From a virus: DNA of 29,253 bases. Shown here in pieces: positions 2,209-26,108 of this stretch. The position numbers and the translations under genes were made by a program. Each line of letters starts with the position of its first letter. The stretch's first letter is position 1. The notes beneath the pieces were generated by a model. The model saw only the letters and a program-made list of their open reading frames with translations, ran no database searches and was not told the DNA's origin. The DNA lies in the IMG/VR virus record IMGVR_UViG_3300037961_002751, positions 1-29,253 of that record. The stretch is one strand, 5' to 3'.

Positions 2209-5200
2209 CTAGGACTCTAATGCGGCAATACGGGTTTCTAGACTTTCGATACGTTCCATTGCTTCTTGAAGTGCTTTGACAGCTTTCATGTAAAGCACGG
2301 AGTAGTTAACCGATTTGGTTTTGGTGCCAAGGTCGTTACCCTCTCCGTCAGTGTCAGGCGACTCAGAAACAAGACCAGGTGATACGGTTTCAACTTCTTG
2401 AGCAATTACACCAATTTGAGTGTGTGTGTCGAAACCCGTGCTTTCCTTGAAATTATAATTGCGAACTTGCAAAGACTTAATATCTGACCACTGAGAACTG
2501 GCATCAACGATGTTTTCCTTTAATTTAACGTCTGAAAGACTGCCATAAGAGTTGTTGGTGTTTTCAACATCTCCGTCCTGTCTAACAACAAAACAAACAG
2601 TGCCATTAGTGTTGTCAGTAGCGCCTTTTAAGTAAGCAATAGCAGCATTACTTGTAGACGTAGCACCGTTTCTTATTCCTATAAAGCCACTGCTAGTAAA
2701 GGTGTCAATTTGTCCAACGCCTGAGATTTTTATCCGCTCAGTTTCCGTTCCACCGTTAGACGTGCGGAATACAAGCGAGACATCATCACTTGCAGAAGAT
2801 CCAGCAGTTATCTGTGCTTGTTTGTCACCACTAAGATTTAGGGAACCAAGCGCTGCGTATGCTCCAGAAGTCCCGGATTCATTATCAAATGCTGTAAAAG
2901 CAAAAGCACCGACGTTGTAATTGACAATAGCTCCATCAGCATAAATACGACTTGAAACTGTCCCATCTTCTACAATGGCTACAGCAACATCAGTTGCATT
3001 CGTCCTACGAATTGTCAGCGACCCATTCGCATCAAAATTTGCGTGATCGTTGTCAGCCGTTGATGTGCCGCCAAATAAAACGTGTCCATCATTTAAAATG
3101 CGCATCCGCTCTCCCCAACCACCAGAGTAGGTTTCAAAAGCAATACTTCCACTAGCAGTTCTTGAACCAATGACTCCTGTATTTTGATCAGTTCTTGCGC
3201 CAAACCACAAGCCAGCTGCATTTCCGGATGTCGCTTCATATCCGGTCATGAACAGTCGCGTGTTGCTTGTGCCTGCTCCGGCGCCAGTTGCCAAAACACT
3301 TAATTTTCCATCACCAGCGCTAGCATTATCGATCCCGATGCCAACAGTGCCCGAGCTGTCGATACTCATACGCGGAGTCGGACTTGGCTCACCATCCGCA
3401 GTAGTGGAAAACACTATGCGGCCTGGGCAATCGTTTGATCCTGGAGTTCCATCAACAAATGCAGCAATTGATGCGTGTTGATGATTGGAATCAGTTCCGT
3501 CGTAACCGTAAAAAGCAATTGAGCCAAGTTGATCATCATCGTTAACGATAACTGGAGAGGCCGCTGTTCCTCTGGTGGATCTGAAGTTAATTTGAGGACC
3601 GTAAATATCAGCGACTGATCGGCTTAGTGAAAGTGCGTAGCCAGACGAGGAATCTGTTGATACCTCCAATTGTGCCTGACTATTGCCAATCGTCTGCGAA
3701 CTGGTCGTACCAACTAATACGTTGCCTGAGCTTTTAACAGTTAAATGCTCTGTGTTGTCAGTAAAAACTGCGAAGTCATTGATGCTTGCATCGCCTTGGG
3801 CAATACGTGGACCCCACCCAGTAAGTGCAGGAAATTGTAAATATGCGGCAGATGTATTCGTGCCAACATTGACATTACCCTGAAGATTGCTATTTCCAGC
3901 AAACGTGACAGTTCCATCGGCGCCGATTACGCTGGTCGCTGTGGTACTACCTGTGGGGTAACCAGCGAAAACAGCGGCAGTAGCACTGTTTCTGCATACG
4001 GAAAGAAGACCACTGTCCTCAATCCTTACACCAGGCTCACCAGCCTTAGCGTCACCAACAAACCTGGCTGAGCCATCGGCGGCAATAAAGACGTTAGTGT
4101 TACCGGCATTGTCTAGCGCTCTGAATGCATTTTGAGCACCTCCGTCAATAGAGATGGATACAAATCCACTATTTGAAGTAGACTGAATGAGCGATTGACC
4201 GTATATTTGACCAGCAAAGCGACCTTGACCATTACCAGCATCAAGAAGGATATTTCCATTACCAGATAGGTCACCACCCATCTTCATGGAACCGTTAGCA
4301 AGAATATAAGCTTTGTCAGAGCCATTGAAGTTTGCAGCAAATACAACCGCACTACTAGAACTAGAGTTTCTTGATCTAACTGTGCCCAAGAATTGAGCTG
4401 ATCCATCAGTAGAATCTAACGTAATCCTGTAAATGCCACTTTCAAGATTACCCATTTTAAGAGTGCTATCAGTGTTATAAAGTCCCGCATAACTATTTGT
4501 GCCATTGGCTACCAATAGTCCATACGTGGAGGTAATATTAGTCAAACCACCAGCAAACGAGGCTGAGCCGTCGGTGCCGATAGTTACCGTAGGACTACTT
4601 CCTGCTGTAGTAGGACGAACGCTGATTGCAGAAGTAGAACTATTACGGTCACCCTGAAGTTCAATAATTCCTGAAATAATTCCACCATCTGCAGTGATTT
4701 CAGTTAAGTCGCCAGCAAACGAGGCTGAGCCACTTGAATTAATAGTAACTTTTTTGTTTGCTGGCAATATTCCTGCACCTAGATAACCTTCAAAAATTGG
4801 ATTATCAGCTCCTCTTAAGACTTGAATAACACCGCTGCTGGTATTCACGATATTGCCACTAGCAAACGTAGCTGATCCAGCAGCTGTAATAAACGCTGAC
4901 CACGTATTATTGGCAGCATTTCTTGTAGCAAAGGAGTAATTAGAATCTGAAGGCGGATAAACTGTATAGCCTTCATTTGAACGGACAGTGTTGTCAAACT
5001 CGGCAGCTCCAGCGGCTGTAATAAAAGCCTTTTCTACTTTTGTTCCACCTACATCAGATTGTACTTTAAAAAGTTTAGAACTAACGTTGTCTGATGCTGC
5101 GTATAAATCAATTATGCCGTCGTTAATAGTGACACCACTGTTTTGCGCTAGCTGAACATATGATCCTGAAGTTGGGCCAAACGTGGCAGTTCCAGCAGCT

Positions 5201-6756
5201 GTAATTACTGTCGTGTAGTTGCTCGTAGACGTACCAGCGCGAAAAACATGATTTGCTGCTCCATCAGACCTAGTTGCTTGGAATGCTCCACTTGCTCCAC
5301 TAAGAGTTAATTGACCGTTTGCGGTAATAACTGAGGTGTAATTACTGGTAGACGTTCCACCACGGAAAACATGGTTTGCTGCACCATCACTCCGACTTGC
5401 TTGGAAAGCGCCACTTGTACTATCAGCCTTTACTTGCCCATTAAACTCCGCATTTCCGGTGCTGGTGATTTTTAGCCGCTCGCCGCCGTTTACGTTGAAG
5501 ACCAAATAATTGTCATCTGTGTCATACAAGATTGCACCTTTCTGCACCCCAGCGCTATTTTTAAATAAAATAGCATCATTGCCATCAGTAGATCCTGCCT
5601 CCAAAGTCAAATAGCAATCCGCAGAGCCTTTTACATGCAGCTTTGATGAGGGTGACGTATTAATGCCAACATTGCCCGAGCTGTCGATTTTGATCCTCTC
5701 TTCATCGGCTGTGGCGTCATATACATTTAAAAAGCTATTACCTACACCAACTTCAAAAACTCTCGCACCCGTCCCTGTTTTTTCTAAAACCAGCCGAGAA
5801 ATAGTGCCATCACTGATTTTTAAGTTTTTTCCGTTTGCAGGAAAAGAAGAAGTGCTTACACCAACATTGCCGCTAAACTCCGCATTTCCGGTGCTGGTAA
5901 TTGACAACCTGTTTTGACTATTTGTATTGTCAAAGAAGTTTAATGTCCCGCCTGATGTGTGGTAAATACTAAATTTATTTGTACCACTTGTAGCGAATCT
6001 CAGGGCTGCATCACCGTTGCTATCAATTTTAATTGCAGAAGCTGTTCCATTTACATGCAGAATTTCTCCTGGCTCCTCCGTCCCAACACCCACCTTCCCG
6101 TCAGGGTCAATTCTCATTTTCGTGGTTTCACTACCACTATTTGAGGTCTTAAAGTTTAGGGCTACGCTGTCACTTGCTGAAGACCCTGCTGTTAAATTTG
6201 CATTCAGCCCCAAGGCATCAGCATTGGTCCTAATCTCTGCATACGCCGTGCTGCTAACAGACGTCTGCACACTGATCATATTATTAAATGTCCACGCATT
6301 GGTGCTATCAATCCATTTAATCGTCTTATCAGTTGCACCTTTCAGCGTAATGCCACCGCCATCAGCAGTTACATCCGTAGGAGTGCTAACAACACCCAAC
6401 TCAATGTTTTTATCTTCAATCAATACGGTTTGACCCGTAATAAAAGTTGTCGCTCCTTGTACTGTCAGATCATTCGGAATCGTTACATTACCAGTCGCAT
6501 CAACTAGAATTCGTGCCGCTCCATTCGTCACCAGCGCAATCGCATCCGTTCCAGAGCGATACAGCCCACTGTTCAGGTCTGATTGGAACGCTATCCCTGG
6601 TGCGCTTAATGTCCCGTCTGGTACGGATCGATGCAGATCCGAGATGGCAAGCTTTTTCGTCGCGTCAGCACTAACGTCAACAATCGGCAGAACGTCAGTA
6701 GCCGCCGAATCTGCTGCCGTTAAAGACGTGAGTGCGGTGACTTTGACGTTTGCCAT
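2209..6756 (-). CDS. Large tail fibre with C-terminal S74 self-cleaving chaperone
   Basis: This 1515-residue structural protein has three parts. An N-terminal attachment region (about 1-110) is shared in pattern with the neighbouring fibre gene (PDGT..AP.IAF....G..R). A very long shaft consists of short beta repeats marked by recurring blocks such as ITAAGTATF, INSSGSASFAG and IGADGTVTFAG. The C terminus is an intramolecular chaperone of the peptidase S74 type: LSDVKLKENI, IGVIAQEVE, VNYSVLYMKAVKALQEAMERIESLE. In S74 domains the SD..(K/R).K..I motif carries a Ser-Lys dyad; here these are Ser1408 and Lys1413, so release of about 108 residues after trimerisation is expected. The final helix is a coiled coil. 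An SD-like GAGGG sits 7-8 bases before the ATG. It is likely the receptor-binding side or tip fibre. Confidence 0.9.
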   Translation of the reverse strand: MANVKVTALTSLTAADSAATDVLPIVDVSADATKKLAISDLHRSVPDGTLSAPGIAFQSDLNSGLYRSGTDAIALVTNGAARILVDATGNVTIPNDLTVQGATTFITGQTVLIEDKNIELGVVSTPTDVTADGGGITLKGATDKTIKWIDSTNAWTFNNMISVQTSVSSTAYAEIRTNADALGLNANLTAGSSASDSVALNFKTSNSGSETTKMRIDPDGKVGVGTEEPGEILHVNGTASAIKIDSNGDAALRFATSGTNKFSIYHTSGGTLNFFDNTNSQNRLSITSTGNAEFSGNVGVSTSSFPANGKNLKISDGTISRLVLEKTGTGARVFEVGVGNSFLNVYDATADEERIKIDSSGNVGINTSPSSKLHVKGSADCYLTLEAGSTDGNDAILFKNSAGVQKGAILYDTDDNYLVFNVNGGERLKITSTGNAEFNGQVKADSTSGAFQASRSDGAANHVFRGGTSTSNYTSVITANGQLTLSGASGAFQATRSDGAANHVFRAGTSTSNYTTVITAAGTATFGPTSGSYVQLAQNSGVTINDGIIDLYAASDNVSSKLFKVQSDVGGTKVEKAFITAAGAAEFDNTVRSNEGYTVYPPSDSNYSFATRNAANNTWSAFITAAGSATFASGNIVNTSSGVIQVLRGADNPIFEGYLGAGILPANKKVTINSSGSASFAGDLTEITADGGIISGIIELQGDRNSSTSAISVRPTTAGSSPTVTIGTDGSASFAGGLTNITSTYGLLVANGTNSYAGLYNTDSTLKMGNLESGIYRITLDSTDGSAQFLGTVRSRNSSSSSAVVFAANFNGSDKAYILANGSMKMGGDLSGNGNILLDAGNGQGRFAGQIYGQSLIQSTSNSGFVSISIDGGAQNAFRALDNAGNTNVFIAADGSARFVGDAKAGEPGVRIEDSGLLSVCRNSATAAVFAGYPTGSTTATSVIGADGTVTFAGNSNLQGNVNVGTNTSAAYLQFPALTGWGPRIAQGDASINDFAVFTDNTEHLTVKSSGNVLVGTTSSQTIGNSQAQLEVSTDSSSGYALSLSRSVADIYGPQINFRSTRGTAASPVIVNDDDQLGSIAFYGYDGTDSNHQHASIAAFVDGTPGSNDCPGRIVFSTTADGEPSPTPRMSIDSSGTVGIGIDNASAGDGKLSVLATGAGAGTSNTRLFMTGYEATSGNAAGLWFGARTDQNTGVIGSRTASGSIAFETYSGGWGERMRILNDGHVLFGGTSTADNDHANFDANGSLTIRRTNATDVAVAIVEDGTVSSRIYADGAIVNYNVGAFAFTAFDNESGTSGAYAALGSLNLSGDKQAQITAGSSASDDVSLVFRTSNGGTETERIKISGVGQIDTFTSSGFIGIRNGATSTSNAAIAYLKGATDNTNGTVCFVVRQDGDVENTNNSYGSLSDVKLKENIVDASSQWSDIKSLQVRNYNFKESTGFDTHTQIGVIAQEVETVSPGLVSESPDTDGEGNDLGTKTKSVNYSVLYMKAVKALQEAMERIESLETRIAALES
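5218..5420 (-). repeat. 41-residue tandem repeat inside the fibre gene
   Basis: Two copies of about 80 bp, 123 bp apart, encode SGAFQASRSDGAANHVFRGG and then SGAFQATRSDGAANHVFRAG, each followed by TSTSNYT.VITA. The copies are in frame with each other and differ mostly at third codon positions, so this is an older intragenic duplication kept under protein-level selection. Confidence 0.75.
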
Positions 6757-21202: not shown

Positions 21203-21580
21203 TCAGTTGTACTTCTTCCGGCCTAGGCCAGTGACACTCACGGCGCCTGCGCCAGTTCCACCAGCGACTGTGATTACAGCACGCGCATAACGCTTGATCT
21301 CGTCACTGTTGATGACAAGAGTCTCGACAAGCGCAGTGTTGGCAGTCGTAGTGGTGAAAGCAGCGTCGGTGACATCCGCGAAACTGCTGTTGTCAGCAGA
21401 ATCTTGGATCTTCACTGCATACGTGATGCCTGAGCCACCGGCTTCAGCGTCAAGAATCAAGGTGATATCACCCTCGTAATCGAGAAGGTCAACCCCTGTC
21501 TCGTTGCCAGTTGCGGTGACAACGTCATTTGGTGCGAAAGACAAGACAGTCAGCGTCCGTCTAGTGTTGCCGATGCTCAT
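21203..21580 (-). CDS. Beta-rich structural protein, probable capsid decoration
   Basis: The 125-residue protein starts MSIGNTRRTLTVLSFAPNDV and is strand-rich throughout. It contains GDITLILDAEAGGSGITYAV, VKIQDSADNSSFADVTDAAF and a closing RYARAVITVAGGTGAGAVSV. The phrase KIQ.S.DN..F.DV is typical of phage proteins found next to the capsid gene and often called decoration or structural proteins with an Ig-like or jelly-roll fold. Its position (after capsid, before neck) fits decoration. A terminator directly after it separates it from low-copy neck genes, which fits high copy number. The function is inferred from position and composition. Confidence 0.6.
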   Translation of the reverse strand: MSIGNTRRTLTVLSFAPNDVVTATGNETGVDLLDYEGDITLILDAEAGGSGITYAVKIQDSADNSSFADVTDAAFTTTTANTALVETLVINSDEIKRYARAVITVAGGTGAGAVSVTGLGRKKYN

Positions 21581-21835: not shown

Positions 21836-24589
21836 TCAGGTTGCGTAGCAGAATGCACCAGGCTGTTTGACTGCAAAGTCAACGTCCTGCAGCGCAATGA
21901 TGCGAACTGTGCCAGCAGTTGCACCTGCATAAGGATCAACAGTTAGATCCAGGCCAGACCACATCGCCATAATCAGCTGTGAGAAGTCACCGAACAAAGC
22001 GTCGTTGTTCTCAAGCTGGTTGGAAACGGTGACTGGATAACCGTTGATTTCATCGTCCTGGTAAACGAACTGAGCCGTGCCAGAAGCCTTCTCAGTGCTC
22101 TTGAGAGCGCCACGAGCGGAGGCGTTGATGATGTAACGCAAAGCGCCAGCATCAGCGTTAGCCGCTGCAACATCTGTTTCCATGCCGATGTACTCGGCGA
22201 AGGTTCCAAAGCTAGTCAGAGACTGAGTACCAATACCAGTGGTGTTGATGATTCCCAGCGGCTGGTTAGAAGATCCAGAGCCGTTCAGGCCAACACGATC
22301 AAGCTCAAGAGCAAGAGACTTGGCAAGATCATCGCGAACCATGCTCTCAACACTAATGTCAGATTGAAGCAGAAGCTTTCTGCTGAAATCAGTGAATGCA
22401 CCACATGTTTTAGGTGAAAGGTTCACCTGCTCGATGGTTTGCTGAGACTCAGTAGGAGAAGATCCCTCGCCAACCCAGTAAGCAGTGCTGCTACCGGACT
22501 GCTTCGGAATTGAAATGTTTCCGTTAATGCCGCTCAGAGTCGTCATGCCAGCCTGAGCTAGTGCAAGACGATTTCTCAATAACTGGATAAACGAGCCTGA
22601 CAAGAGCACATCGTCAACAAGGTTGCCCCCAGCGGTTGCGGTGCCAACGTTCAAGTCACGACGCAGCACCTCGTTAGGCACCACAATGCCATTGGAAGAG
22701 CGATCGTACTTTTTGGCAGCCTCGCGTCCAACCTCAATCTCAAATTCAGCAGCTTGGCGAGCTTGTGTGTCACCAGGGCTGGCAAGATGATTCAGCGCAC
22801 GAATGAAGCTGAAGCGCTTGATTTCTTTTTGAGAAAGACCAACATCGTTAGAGGCGACGTCGGTGGAGCGAATTGGCTGTTCCACTTGAGAAGTTCCGAT
22901 TTTGTCGAGGAATGCAGCACGAGCTTCGTCGAGGGAGTTGTCTCCGTCGATCAACTCTCGTGCAAGATCTGCCATGTGGTGCTGAGCACCCAAAGCAGTG
23001 ATAGAGGCGACACGGTCTTTTTCAGCCTTTTTGGCTTCCGACCGAATTACCTCCAGATTTGGAGATTGTTCTTCCATTTCAGGAGCGGGGATAGATGCGG
23101 TCGTGACCGCTGAACGAGTTTCCTGCTTTTCAACAGGAGCTTCATTTTCGATAATAGTAGCCTCGGCTTGCGAAGATTCAGGCGACTGCTGCTCTGGAGA
23201 CAACAGTGACCTGCCAATTCCAATCGTTGGATCCGCTGGAATGGAAACCAAGCTCAGCTCGTGTGGAGTCCAGCCAGTGGCAAGCACTCCACCCTCACGT
23301 TCTTCTACCTCATCTAGCGAGTAGCCAAACGAAATACCACGCAAGATGCCGTCTTTAACGTCATCTAAGTATTGTTTTGCAAATTCAGAGCGAGAAAAGC
23401 GAACTTTTGCATAAGCACGTTTTTTCTTCTTGTCATGCCACGCCCTCTCGACAACACCTAAGACTTTGTCTGGATTGTGGTTGAAAAGAAAGGGTGCGCC
23501 ATCGTTAAGACGCATGAAATTGGGTGCGTCATCATCATGACTCAGCACTTCAGTGCCGAAATACCGTTGAACCGGATACTCAGAGCTGAACGGAAACTCA
23601 AATGTCCGCTCATCAATGGTCGTCAGTTCAGTGGCCTCGGTGCGCTGCATCCGCTCGCCGACGAGCTTTCGCGCCTCAAGCTTCTCAACTTCTCGCAATG
23701 AAGCGATTTTGGTGAGTGTGCTGAATCGGTGCCCCACTCGGGTCTCAGTCTTCATGTACCCACCGTCTGGATCTGGTCGATACACGCAGATCAGCGCTGC
23801 AGGGTCGTCCTCTGTCCCAGTAACAGTGAAGCTTGAGTCAGGCACATCAATGGTTCCATCACGCTCAATGCGTTCAATAACGCCACGAGCACGTCCACCA
23901 CTGCTGTTCCAAGAGACTGAGTCTCCAATGCTGAGCGCATCCGGTGCTGCTCGTTGAGTTTCAGGTTCCATAGCCTTTTCGTTGGTTGCGGGCTCGAACT
24001 CAAGAGGTTCGTATTCGTTGTCGCGAAGCCATTGTTTTGCTTCGCCAGCCGTGTAACGACTTATCTTGAATCTTATCGACTGAAGCTCCGCACCTTCCTC
24101 GTCGTCCATTATTCCGAAAATAAAGTCGATTCCAACGCCTCCACGATCATTTGAGCGCCTAAATCCGTCAAATTTGTCAGGATCAGCGATTCTTGCCGCA
24201 TGTTCATTTGGGTAAGGGCGCTCCATTTCAGCAAATCCTGCGCGATCACGCGCTTCTTTGATGCGCTTTGAGCGTGCGTCAGACCATGACTTGCCAGCGT
24301 CACCACCCCATGCCGCCCAAGCGACTCTGCCATTGCTGGGATAACCCTCTTCTCCAGGGCTGAACCCCTTGCCTTGTTTATCCACAAAATGACGCGCGAA
24401 CCAGGCAGACATGGTCACTACCGTGTCCGCACTTAGCTCGTTGCCACTTAAAATTTGCGTGGCTCTGCGTGCTGCTACGTCAGTGCCGCCTCCTTCGCCA
24501 TCAGCCTTCCAGTCTCTATAACGTTGAGCCTCCTCTCTCATGCCCTCAGTTGGCATGAGATCAATTTCAACTCCGTTTACGTTTGCCAT
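21836..24589 (-). CDS. Capsid polyprotein: prohead protease fused to HK97-type major capsid protein
   Basis: This is one 917-residue frame. I start at the ATG at 24589 (SD AGGAAG 7 bases away) rather than 13 codons upstream. Its domains are as follows. Residues 1-115 form a phage domain with WFARHFVDKQGKGFSPGEEG and GRVAWAAWGGDAGKSW. Residues 135-195 hold a short domain with SIRFKISRYTAGEAKQWLRD. Residues 210-295 hold a Tudor-like DUF2945/Hva1 domain (GDSVSWNSSGGRARGVIERI, VGHRFSTLTKI). Residues 320-465 are a prohead protease: His371 in LFNH and Ser420 in GISFGY, 49 apart, much like HK97 protease, then HELSLVSIPADP. Residues 505-570 look like a scaffold (delta) segment. Residues 590-917 are the HK97-fold capsid (AGGNLVDDVL, ISIPKQSGSSTAYWVGEG, NGSGSSNQPLGI). 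No separate scaffold or protease gene is seen. Confidence 0.88.
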   Translation of the reverse strand: MANVNGVEIDLMPTEGMREEAQRYRDWKADGEGGGTDVAARRATQILSGNELSADTVVTMSAWFARHFVDKQGKGFSPGEEGYPSNGRVAWAAWGGDAGKSWSDARSKRIKEARDRAGFAEMERPYPNEHAARIADPDKFDGFRRSNDRGGVGIDFIFGIMDDEEGAELQSIRFKISRYTAGEAKQWLRDNEYEPLEFEPATNEKAMEPETQRAAPDALSIGDSVSWNSSGGRARGVIERIERDGTIDVPDSSFTVTGTEDDPAALICVYRPDPDGGYMKTETRVGHRFSTLTKIASLREVEKLEARKLVGERMQRTEATELTTIDERTFEFPFSSEYPVQRYFGTEVLSHDDDAPNFMRLNDGAPFLFNHNPDKVLGVVERAWHDKKKKRAYAKVRFSRSEFAKQYLDDVKDGILRGISFGYSLDEVEEREGGVLATGWTPHELSLVSIPADPTIGIGRSLLSPEQQSPESSQAEATIIENEAPVEKQETRSAVTTASIPAPEMEEQSPNLEVIRSEAKKAEKDRVASITALGAQHHMADLARELIDGDNSLDEARAAFLDKIGTSQVEQPIRSTDVASNDVGLSQKEIKRFSFIRALNHLASPGDTQARQAAEFEIEVGREAAKKYDRSSNGIVVPNEVLRRDLNVGTATAGGNLVDDVLLSGSFIQLLRNRLALAQAGMTTLSGINGNISIPKQSGSSTAYWVGEGSSPTESQQTIEQVNLSPKTCGAFTDFSRKLLLQSDISVESMVRDDLAKSLALELDRVGLNGSGSSNQPLGIINTTGIGTQSLTSFGTFAEYIGMETDVAAANADAGALRYIINASARGALKSTEKASGTAQFVYQDDEINGYPVTVSNQLENNDALFGDFSQLIMAMWSGLDLTVDPYAGATAGTVRIIALQDVDFAVKQPGAFCYAT

Positions 24590-26108
24590 TCGCCTGCTTC
24601 CTGGTAGGTGTGGGCTGCTCTGATTCAAGCAACTCCAGTTGCATAGTCTCGTCAGTCAAGTCCAGATCCTTGTCTAACTTGACGCCTGCATCACTTGCGA
24701 TTTGCTGTTCGCGAGCCAAAGCGCTGATGTTGTCGTCGTAGTCGCCACCAGAATATGCAATCACATCGCTCTTGGTCATGTAACCAGCCTGTTCTGCCTC
24801 GCGGTAAGCCTTGACTTCTTTCAATGGGTCAACCCAGCTCCATCCTCTTGGCATCCAGCGTGGGCTGTCATACCGGCCAGGACGTAGCTCATAGTCAGGA
24901 AAATCACAATAGCCACTCAAGACAGCAAGATTCAGCCACTCGCGGTAGACACGCATATGGAAATTATCAATCAAATACTTCTGTACGACTCTCCAGTGCT
25001 CGCGATCCTCAAGCAAGCTCAAGCGGCTGCTGCTGTAATTAGTCTCGCTGAAATCTCTGGACAACGTCTCATAAGAACAACCAAAGCCTGACGCAAAGCG
25101 CCGTACCTTGTTTTTGACAAACATATCAAACTGCTGATCTGGAGAGTCGATATCAGGAACTGAAACCGTTTCACCAGGAGAAAGGTACTTAAATGTACCT
25201 GGCTCAAACTCACTAATACGCTGGCTGTTTTCCACATCGTCACCAACTAACTCGCCCTCGTTATTAGTAATGAATCCCATGATGCTCGCGCCAGCACGAG
25301 CACGAATGACAGCAGCTTCTTCGTATCCCTGCAGCTGATGAGCATCGGCCATCACGCTGTGGAACCAAGGCACACCCCTGTTCTGACCGGGGCGATCAGG
25401 CATGAATAAGTGGATGACATCATCAGCAGGCAAAAATATGTGTTTGACGTTGGGAGACGGATTACCTTGAAACCAAGTGTCACCAGGATGTCTGGTAAGA
25501 ATCGCGTACCTCACTGGACGCCCCCATTCGTTCACCTCGACGCCATTTCTCCACTCATTACTGGCTGCAAGCGTATCTCCAATGTAACTTTCATCTAATA
25601 GGTCGCTCTCAAGCATTTGCAGCGCTAAAGGCACCTTAGATTCGCCAAATGGCCGCCTAATGACCCTAAAAAGAGCTTCTCCTGACTCGCACATTGCGCC
25701 TACCGCAAGCCACTCAAAGTCATGAAAACTATGGCGACCAGCGCAATCACAATGATTTGGCCGTGTCCACAACGACCACTTTTGCTCTAGCTCAGTATTG
25801 ATCCGGTTGTCGCGCCTGCTGCCGCGCAACTGCAGTACTTGTGACTGCAGCTTTATCCCAGTGCCGATTACATTAATCTGCGTTGTCCTTTTTGCCTGTC
25901 GTGCATAAGGATTATTGCGAACCATCTCTCGTGAGCGGTCACGCAAACGGCGCAAATTGTTTTTAATCTCACTATCAGCGCTAGCCTGACTTGTCATCCA
26001 GTCAGACGTAAGCCGCGACACCATCGCTCCGGTATATCCACGACGGAATGTGCGTGGGTTTGGCTTGCCGAAACCCAGGAAGTTCATGACGGTTGTGCGA
26101 ATACCCAT
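24567..26108 (-). CDS. B: Portal protein (lambda B family)
   Basis: The 513-residue protein matches the lambda portal family in length (lambda B is 533) and features. The N terminus has NLRRLRDRSREMVRNNPYAR and the INVIGTGIKLQSQ motif (R.L..RSR.L.RNNPYA, ..V.G.GI). W.LWTRPNHCDCAGRHSFHD follows, then VGAMCESGEALFRVIRR, QMLESDLLD, DDVIHLFMPDRPGQNRGVPW and YSSSRLSLLEDREHWR. It forms the dodecameric ring at the packaging vertex. It starts 2 bases after the gpW-like gene stops. Its 3' end overlaps the start of the capsid polyprotein by 23 bases, so portal and capsid translation are linked. Confidence 0.93.
   Translation of the reverse strand: MGIRTTVMNFLGFGKPNPRTFRRGYTGAMVSRLTSDWMTSQASADSEIKNNLRRLRDRSREMVRNNPYARQAKRTTQINVIGTGIKLQSQVLQLRGSRRDNRINTELEQKWSLWTRPNHCDCAGRHSFHDFEWLAVGAMCESGEALFRVIRRPFGESKVPLALQMLESDLLDESYIGDTLAASNEWRNGVEVNEWGRPVRYAILTRHPGDTWFQGNPSPNVKHIFLPADDVIHLFMPDRPGQNRGVPWFHSVMADAHQLQGYEEAAVIRARAGASIMGFITNNEGELVGDDVENSQRISEFEPGTFKYLSPGETVSVPDIDSPDQQFDMFVKNKVRRFASGFGCSYETLSRDFSETNYSSSRLSLLEDREHWRVVQKYLIDNFHMRVYREWLNLAVLSGYCDFPDYELRPGRYDSPRWMPRGWSWVDPLKEVKAYREAEQAGYMTKSDVIAYSGGDYDDNISALAREQQIASDAGVKLDKDLDLTDETMQLELLESEQPTPTRKQANGKRKRS

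Follow-up and report, generated by a model that had tools for sequence, protein, structure and literature searches.

We found that the window, the 29,253-nucleotide stretch analysed here, which is a complete IMG/VR virus record from a marine phage, carries a protease–capsid fusion gene that is best read as encoding two nested products: a 917-amino-acid protease carrier and a 413-amino-acid scaffold–capsid protein, the latter translated from an internal start codon, M505. From comparative sequence evidence, we give this reading a probability of about 0.77. The 917-amino-acid protein would probably be the minor product. Protease–capsid fusions as such are already catalogued (NF045541, PHROG 617); the new part is the conserved candidate internal start and its signals, which lie between protease and scaffold. 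The features of the gene, all on the minus strand, are as follows.

24589..21836, minus strand: whole fusion gene, 917 aa plus stop, 100.0 kDa, start ATG at 24589
24239..24589, minus strand: D1, residues 1–117, helical, phrog_2859 type, low-confidence model
23960..24238, minus strand: D2, residues 118–210, alpha/beta, model pLDDT of about 80 over residues 130–200
23654..23959, minus strand: D3, residues 211–312, Tudor-like beta barrel, Pfam Hva1_TUDOR at residues 222–267
23195..23614, minus strand: S78 prohead protease, residues 326–465, from the Peptidase_S78 and PHROG matches
23122..23137, minus strand: upstream linker hairpin CCTGTT-GAAA-AGCAGG, observed in the clade to which the window belongs
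23097..23110, minus strand: tetraloop hairpin GCGGT-CACG-ACCGC, 5 bp, conserved and covarying in 42 distinct relatives
23078..23096, minus strand: unpaired 19-nt spacer from hairpin to internal ATG, without a Shine-Dalgarno sequence
23075..23077, minus strand: proposed internal start M505, ATG; ATG or GTG in 106 of 108 distinct relatives
21836..23077, minus strand: proposed short product, residues 505–917, 413 aa, 44.0 kDa, scaffold plus capsid
22658..23077, minus strand: scaffold (delta-like) domain, residues 505–644, mostly helical, presumably removed on maturation
21839..22657, minus strand: mature shell protein, residues ~645–917, HK97 fold; the R4C virion chain aligns to residues 654–909

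The 917-codon frame contains no internal stops. A TTG at 24628, upstream of the ATG, would lengthen the product to 930 aa; we preferred the ATG at 24589 because M1 of the fusion protein is invariant in 40 aligned relatives. The gene comes after those for a small terminase, a large terminase, a head–tail joining protein and a lambda-type portal, in that order, and its start shares 23 nt with the portal gene (24567..26108). We searched related genomes for the same domain order and found about 100 related contigs in which the fusion frame is open; in these the front domains are variously there, missing, exchanged or duplicated. Direct relatives in IMG/VR comprised 30 loci, besides which D1 was encoded by at least 594 other candidate stretches; a search of viral contigs with R4C as the query returned no relatives. 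Protease, linker and capsid lie in one frame in every inspected locus that is not ended by a contig edge, and among family members having both domains we found neither a split between protease and capsid nor a separate capsid gene. Because all relatives remain open from the protease across the linker to the capsid, a stop or frameshift missed between protease and capsid, which the original prediction had named as one result that would overturn it, is excluded.

Pfam searches of the fusion protein returned the three families that had been anticipated, namely Hva1_TUDOR at residues 222–267 (E 5.6e-6), Peptidase_S78 at 365–452 (E 9.9e-7) and Phage_capsid at 654–916 (E 2.7e-45), all exceeding curated cut-offs. 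Among PHROGs, phrog_617 (protease plus head protein) spans residues 320–916 (E 3e-156) and phrog_2859 spans residues 10–111 (E 7.5e-24). Residues H371, S420 and E444, which we take to be the S78 catalytic triad as in HK97 gp4, show no variation among the 59 aligned sequences. AlphaFold2 modelled the front part as three units with low-confidence stretches between them at 116–125, 204–212 and 302–325; D2 and D3 reached pLDDT values of about 80–90, and D1 appeared as low-confidence helices only. The profile matches and predicted units together uphold the original view of separate modules, with protease, scaffold and capsid in one frame. The Tudor-like segment is likewise real: PF11160 scored 26.8 bits against a gathering score of 24.1, and an SH3-like barrel was predicted at residues 222–300 with pLDDT of about 80–90. 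D2 has no Pfam family. A sequence search of the PDB with D1 gave no match, and a PDB fold search with residues 1–325 gave nothing below E 0.001, only weak KOW, Tudor and PWWP barrels.

The front part varies widely among relatives. The order D1-D2-D3 occurs in the window and in contigs L001, L049, L096 and L111; D1-D3 in L003, L008 and L076; and D1-D2 in S-CBS3 and L100. D1 is the sole front domain in L093 and L103, and in L051, L060, L063 and L069 it is accompanied by two tandem Tudor-like domains ahead of the protease. S-LBS1, L020, R4C and VP882 have no front domains. D2 is absent from many relatives, and D3 is absent or duplicated in some. An N-terminal extension of about 300 residues, first thought to be unusual, proved to be standard in many marine siphovirus contigs, in S-CBS1 and S-CBS3 and in the CRP roseophages.

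The front domains also occur outside such fusions. In HATV-3, D1 follows the portal domain; HRTV-4 has it within its portal-MuF protein, phiPsal1 and HGTV-1 within their prohead proteases, and Vibrio phage 1.122 in the protein immediately ahead of the capsid gene. In Limnohabitans phage DC31 (L119, 1329-3340), D1 is fused in front of an XkdF-type protease, with the Tudor domain encoded by the next gene, an arrangement that looks as if the window's fusion had been split. As a free small protein, D1 occurs in PaBG (L123:3426-3758), S-CBS4 (L125:3420-3728) and 150E35-1 (L121:3372-3755); the PaBG protein, annotated as putative DNA-binding, adjoins topoisomerase and primase genes. Searching viral models by structure likewise brought up prohead proteases, XkdF and portal proteins. 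The original view, in which the Tudor segment was not generally associated with prohead proteases, needs amending, as modules of the front part also occur with other head proteins: D1 on separate prohead proteases and portals, and a Tudor domain in a gene beside an XkdF protease. From these occurrences, the front domains appear to be general head-interior modules joined to the protease half of the fusion, and their shuffling points to a common, unstudied set of prohead-interior modules.

We gathered 234 protease–capsid frames, in which 108 distinct linkers could be anchored. The codon at the M505 position was ATG in 92 of these and GTG in 14; the two linkers with neither had an ATG a few codons upstream. 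All 14 valines at this site were encoded by GTG, which accounts for 47% of Val codons in the same genes. On a tree of 36 members, the site had switched between ATG and GTG at least five times, or eight times by parsimony. After thinning to 41 distinct linkers, the site was M or V in 41 of 41, and residues −9 to −1 varied widely. By these measures and the signals described below, M505 has the properties of an internal start that is conserved, in frame and equipped with initiation signals, and we infer that it is actually used as a start. Its equivalents are M409 in S-CBS3 and, as candidates, M189 or M221 in R4C. The suggestion that internal starts could yield free capsid protein is thus well supported at M505 by the sequence comparisons. 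We rejected an internal ATG located earlier, near codon 469, which has a Shine-Dalgarno sequence in L015 and L051; it is unconserved, and the window has TCG there. The Shine-Dalgarno-bearing ATG of R4C and VP882 matches roughly codon 469, and the linker ATG of Mica, FoX5 and Alexa lies at a somewhat different place; the exact position may vary by branch.

The linker ahead of M505 carries RNA-level signals. Within the hairpin-bearing wing of the family, the 5-bp stem was fully paired in all 42 distinct sequences, three of its five pairs having changed on both sides, with 13 double-change cells against 1.9 in shuffles. A hairpin of at least 5 bp with at least four GC pairs was present in 37 of the 42, against a mean of 17.7 and a maximum of 25 in 200 synonymous shuffles. 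The start region was less folded than in shuffles (−4.0 versus −5.9 kcal/mol), and the G content of the spacer was 9%, compared with 30% in the genes. Weighing against an internal start, the tetraloop hairpin by itself is short and the folding z-score for the window sequence alone was only −1.8. Rfam gave no match.

Shine-Dalgarno sequences were distributed unevenly across the family. We found none before the internal start in S-CBS3, S-LBS1 or the window, and its lack in the window also counts against use of M505. Strong ones precede the linker ATG in CRP-811 and CRP-821 (both AAGGAG), VP882 (AGAGGTG) and R4C (GGAGG); those of RcRhea, ep3 and phiHAP-1 are moderate, those of Alexa and Mica weak to moderate, and FoX5 has hardly any. 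For the ten isolates combined, the Shine-Dalgarno runs gave P = 9e-5 when every codon position in those genes served as the comparison. Elsewhere in the window, the likely genes for the small terminase, the tail tube and the 126-aa and 1498-aa tail proteins also lack a Shine-Dalgarno sequence, and initiation without one may be usual in this phage.

Synonymous variation is depressed over the same stretch. In the window's clade, variation at fourfold sites of codons 470–519 was 0.11–0.40 of the pairwise expectation, with the rest of the gene mostly at about 1.0–1.5; equally low values occurred only in the portal overlap, which served as a positive control. The constrained stretch contains the two hairpins, the unpaired spacer and the in-frame ATG of M505. 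The window's clade and clades B and E show the dip clearly; in some others it is weaker or absent, which weighs against an internal start. Milder dips in the window's clade lie at codons 390–415 (~23345-23422) and 550–570 (~22880-22942).

For the capsid half, profile (PF05065) and predicted fold agree on an HK97-fold major capsid protein. The model of residues 505–917 has N-terminal helices (512–565), a low-confidence stretch at 647–664 and the HK97 fold. Foldseek with this model gave the R4C capsid (8gta) as the best PDB match (E 1.4e-23), with HK97 entries at E of about 1e-12. The R4C gene encodes a 629-aa protease–capsid fusion, and its virion has a T = 7 shell of 415 copies. The deposited R4C shell chain starts at its residue 362, equivalent to residue 654 of the window's protein; the window's shell domain is homologous to a virion shell in which all that precedes the cut is missing. 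Given this chain start, a conserved basic residue at 644 and the analogy with HK97, we place the final cut at about 644/645, which would leave a 273-residue shell protein. The cut had originally been expected near residues 570–600; the structural homologue would move it to near 644.

We propose the following scheme. Translation from the first ATG, which overlaps the portal gene, would yield the 100-kDa chain of D1-D2-D3, S78 protease, scaffold and capsid domain, and translation from M505 would yield a 44-kDa scaffold–capsid protein resembling HK97 gp5 (43 kDa) in layout and size. The two products would co-assemble through the scaffold and capsid domains that they share. Long subunits would be the minority and would thereby bring the protease and the front domains inside the prohead as a built-in cargo. 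Cleavage near residue 644 by this protease would then free the front part and scaffold while the shell protein stays, after which the head could expand and take in DNA. At the internal start, the hairpin and the G-poor unstructured spacer may replace a Shine-Dalgarno sequence in the window's phage and its near kin, and a Shine-Dalgarno sequence would serve the same purpose in several proteobacterial relatives.

The foremost alternative is that all shell subunits are made as the 917-aa protein, that the protease cuts itself and its neighbours and the pieces leave, and that M505 is merely a conserved residue. In its favour, the frame is unbroken in all relatives, and short fusions such as those of R4C and VP882 would fit in a prohead even if every subunit were long. 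HK97 Prohead 1 contains 415 capsid subunits and about 60 proteases. With all 415 subunits long, front parts of 71.5 kDa each would fill about 70–107% of an HK97-sized prohead interior, a rough estimate in which the range reflects an inner radius of 200–230 Å assumed from HK97; with 60 long and 355 short subunits, they would fill 23–35% by the same rough estimate. Reported capsid sizes are 63.9 nm for CRP-822 and 66 nm for R4C. On account of this filling, a shell in which every subunit is long is unlikely. The original reading had allowed for about 590 residues per capsid subunit being removed or kept inside the head; it is with 590–644 such residues on every subunit that this filling would be reached. 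All-long assembly also leaves unexplained a site restricted to ATG and GTG in a variable linker, the Shine-Dalgarno sequences of the isolates, the covarying hairpin and the synonymous constraint, and we consider it an unlikely account.

Less probable still is that the linker RNA serves RNase processing, a pause for protease folding or module recombination, the Met/Val site being a protease recognition site. Hairpins in coding linkers can do such things, and this one lies right at the junction of protease and scaffold, where modules swap. However, a site acting at the protein level should also use Leu, Ile and non-GTG Val codons, none of which was seen; the spacer is G-poor and unfolded beside the ATG, as expected for an initiation region; and isolates without the hairpin mostly have a Shine-Dalgarno sequence at the corresponding place. 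Programmed frameshifting, or a gene overlapping in another frame, is a very improbable source of the synonymous constraint: the +1 frame is open for 58 codons in the window (codons ~456–514), much of it constrained, but we rejected an overlapping +1 gene because the frame is interrupted in many close relatives, with stops at differing places in L003, L008, L014, L015, L058 and L070 and an unconserved start, and because all three codon positions are equally held, whereas position 2 is free in the portal overlap.

The window's gene is of the S78 protease–capsid fusion type. Like the NF045541 and PHROG 617 and 4523 fusions (VP882, phiHAP-1, R4C, RcRhea, ep3 and S-LBS1), it joins an S78 protease, a scaffold and an HK97 capsid domain within a single frame, and NF045541-type fusions too come after an overlapping portal gene. 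Unlike them, it has 300 extra N-terminal residues, and it scores 179 bits against the NF045541 cut-off of 525; we therefore file it outside NF045541, with its match to PHROG 617 noted. The Synechococcus phages S-CBS1 and S-CBS3 and the roseophages CRP-811 and CRP-821 also have the long architecture, with D1 plus D2 and/or D3, under the annotation of plain major capsid protein. They differ from the window in that S-CBS3 lacks D3, CRP-811 lacks D2 and the internal start of the CRP phages has a Shine-Dalgarno sequence. As in HK97 gp4/gp5, a scaffold precedes the capsid domain, the protease is of the S78 type and the proposed precursor would be close in size to the HK97 one of about 43 kDa, its scaffold presumably being cut off here as well; by contrast, HK97 has separate protease and capsid genes, and the window has one gene with a proposed nested start.

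Two other systems offer partial parallels. In lambda C/Nu3, the protease gene has an in-frame internal start that gives the scaffold alone; that protease is of the S49 type, whereas the window has an S78 protease and its proposed nested product is scaffold plus shell. In retroviral Gag/Gag-Pol, a minority of structural subunits bear the protease fusion, which arises by frameshift or readthrough on the C-terminal side; the window, by analogy only, would use an internal start and has an N-terminal protease.

Taking the relatives together, we think it likely that one gene supplies both subunits, via internal initiation, in a large family of tailed phages that are mostly marine and freshwater ones, with a cyanophage-like wing that depends on the hairpin and a G-poor leader in place of a Shine-Dalgarno sequence, and with Gag/Gag-Pol-like protease dosage. 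Protease–capsid fusions raise the question of how a protease-to-shell ratio of about 1:7 is kept from one chain, and an internal start would be a direct answer for the whole family, including R4C with its solved virion, the culturable cyanophages and the roseophages. The databases would then miss the main capsid precursor, as the records examined annotate the long frame only, and the hairpin with its unfolded leader would be a natural case of Shine-Dalgarno-free initiation inside a gene. The fusion records examined (NF045541, PHROG 617 and 4523) and the R4C paper do not mention internal initiation, and we found no account of it for protease–capsid fusions in the literature searched, which lay mostly outside subscription journals.

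Three other minus-strand genes of the window deserve mention. The gene at 21203-21580 encodes a 125-aa protein that weakly resembles Bbp16 (E 1.2e-4) and may be a capsid cement protein. That at 2209-6756 encodes a 1515-aa tail protein with a C-terminal Peptidase_S74 intramolecular chaperone domain. Judging from its sequence, the 118-aa product of 1181-1537 resembles a small outer-membrane beta-barrel preceded by a signal peptide.
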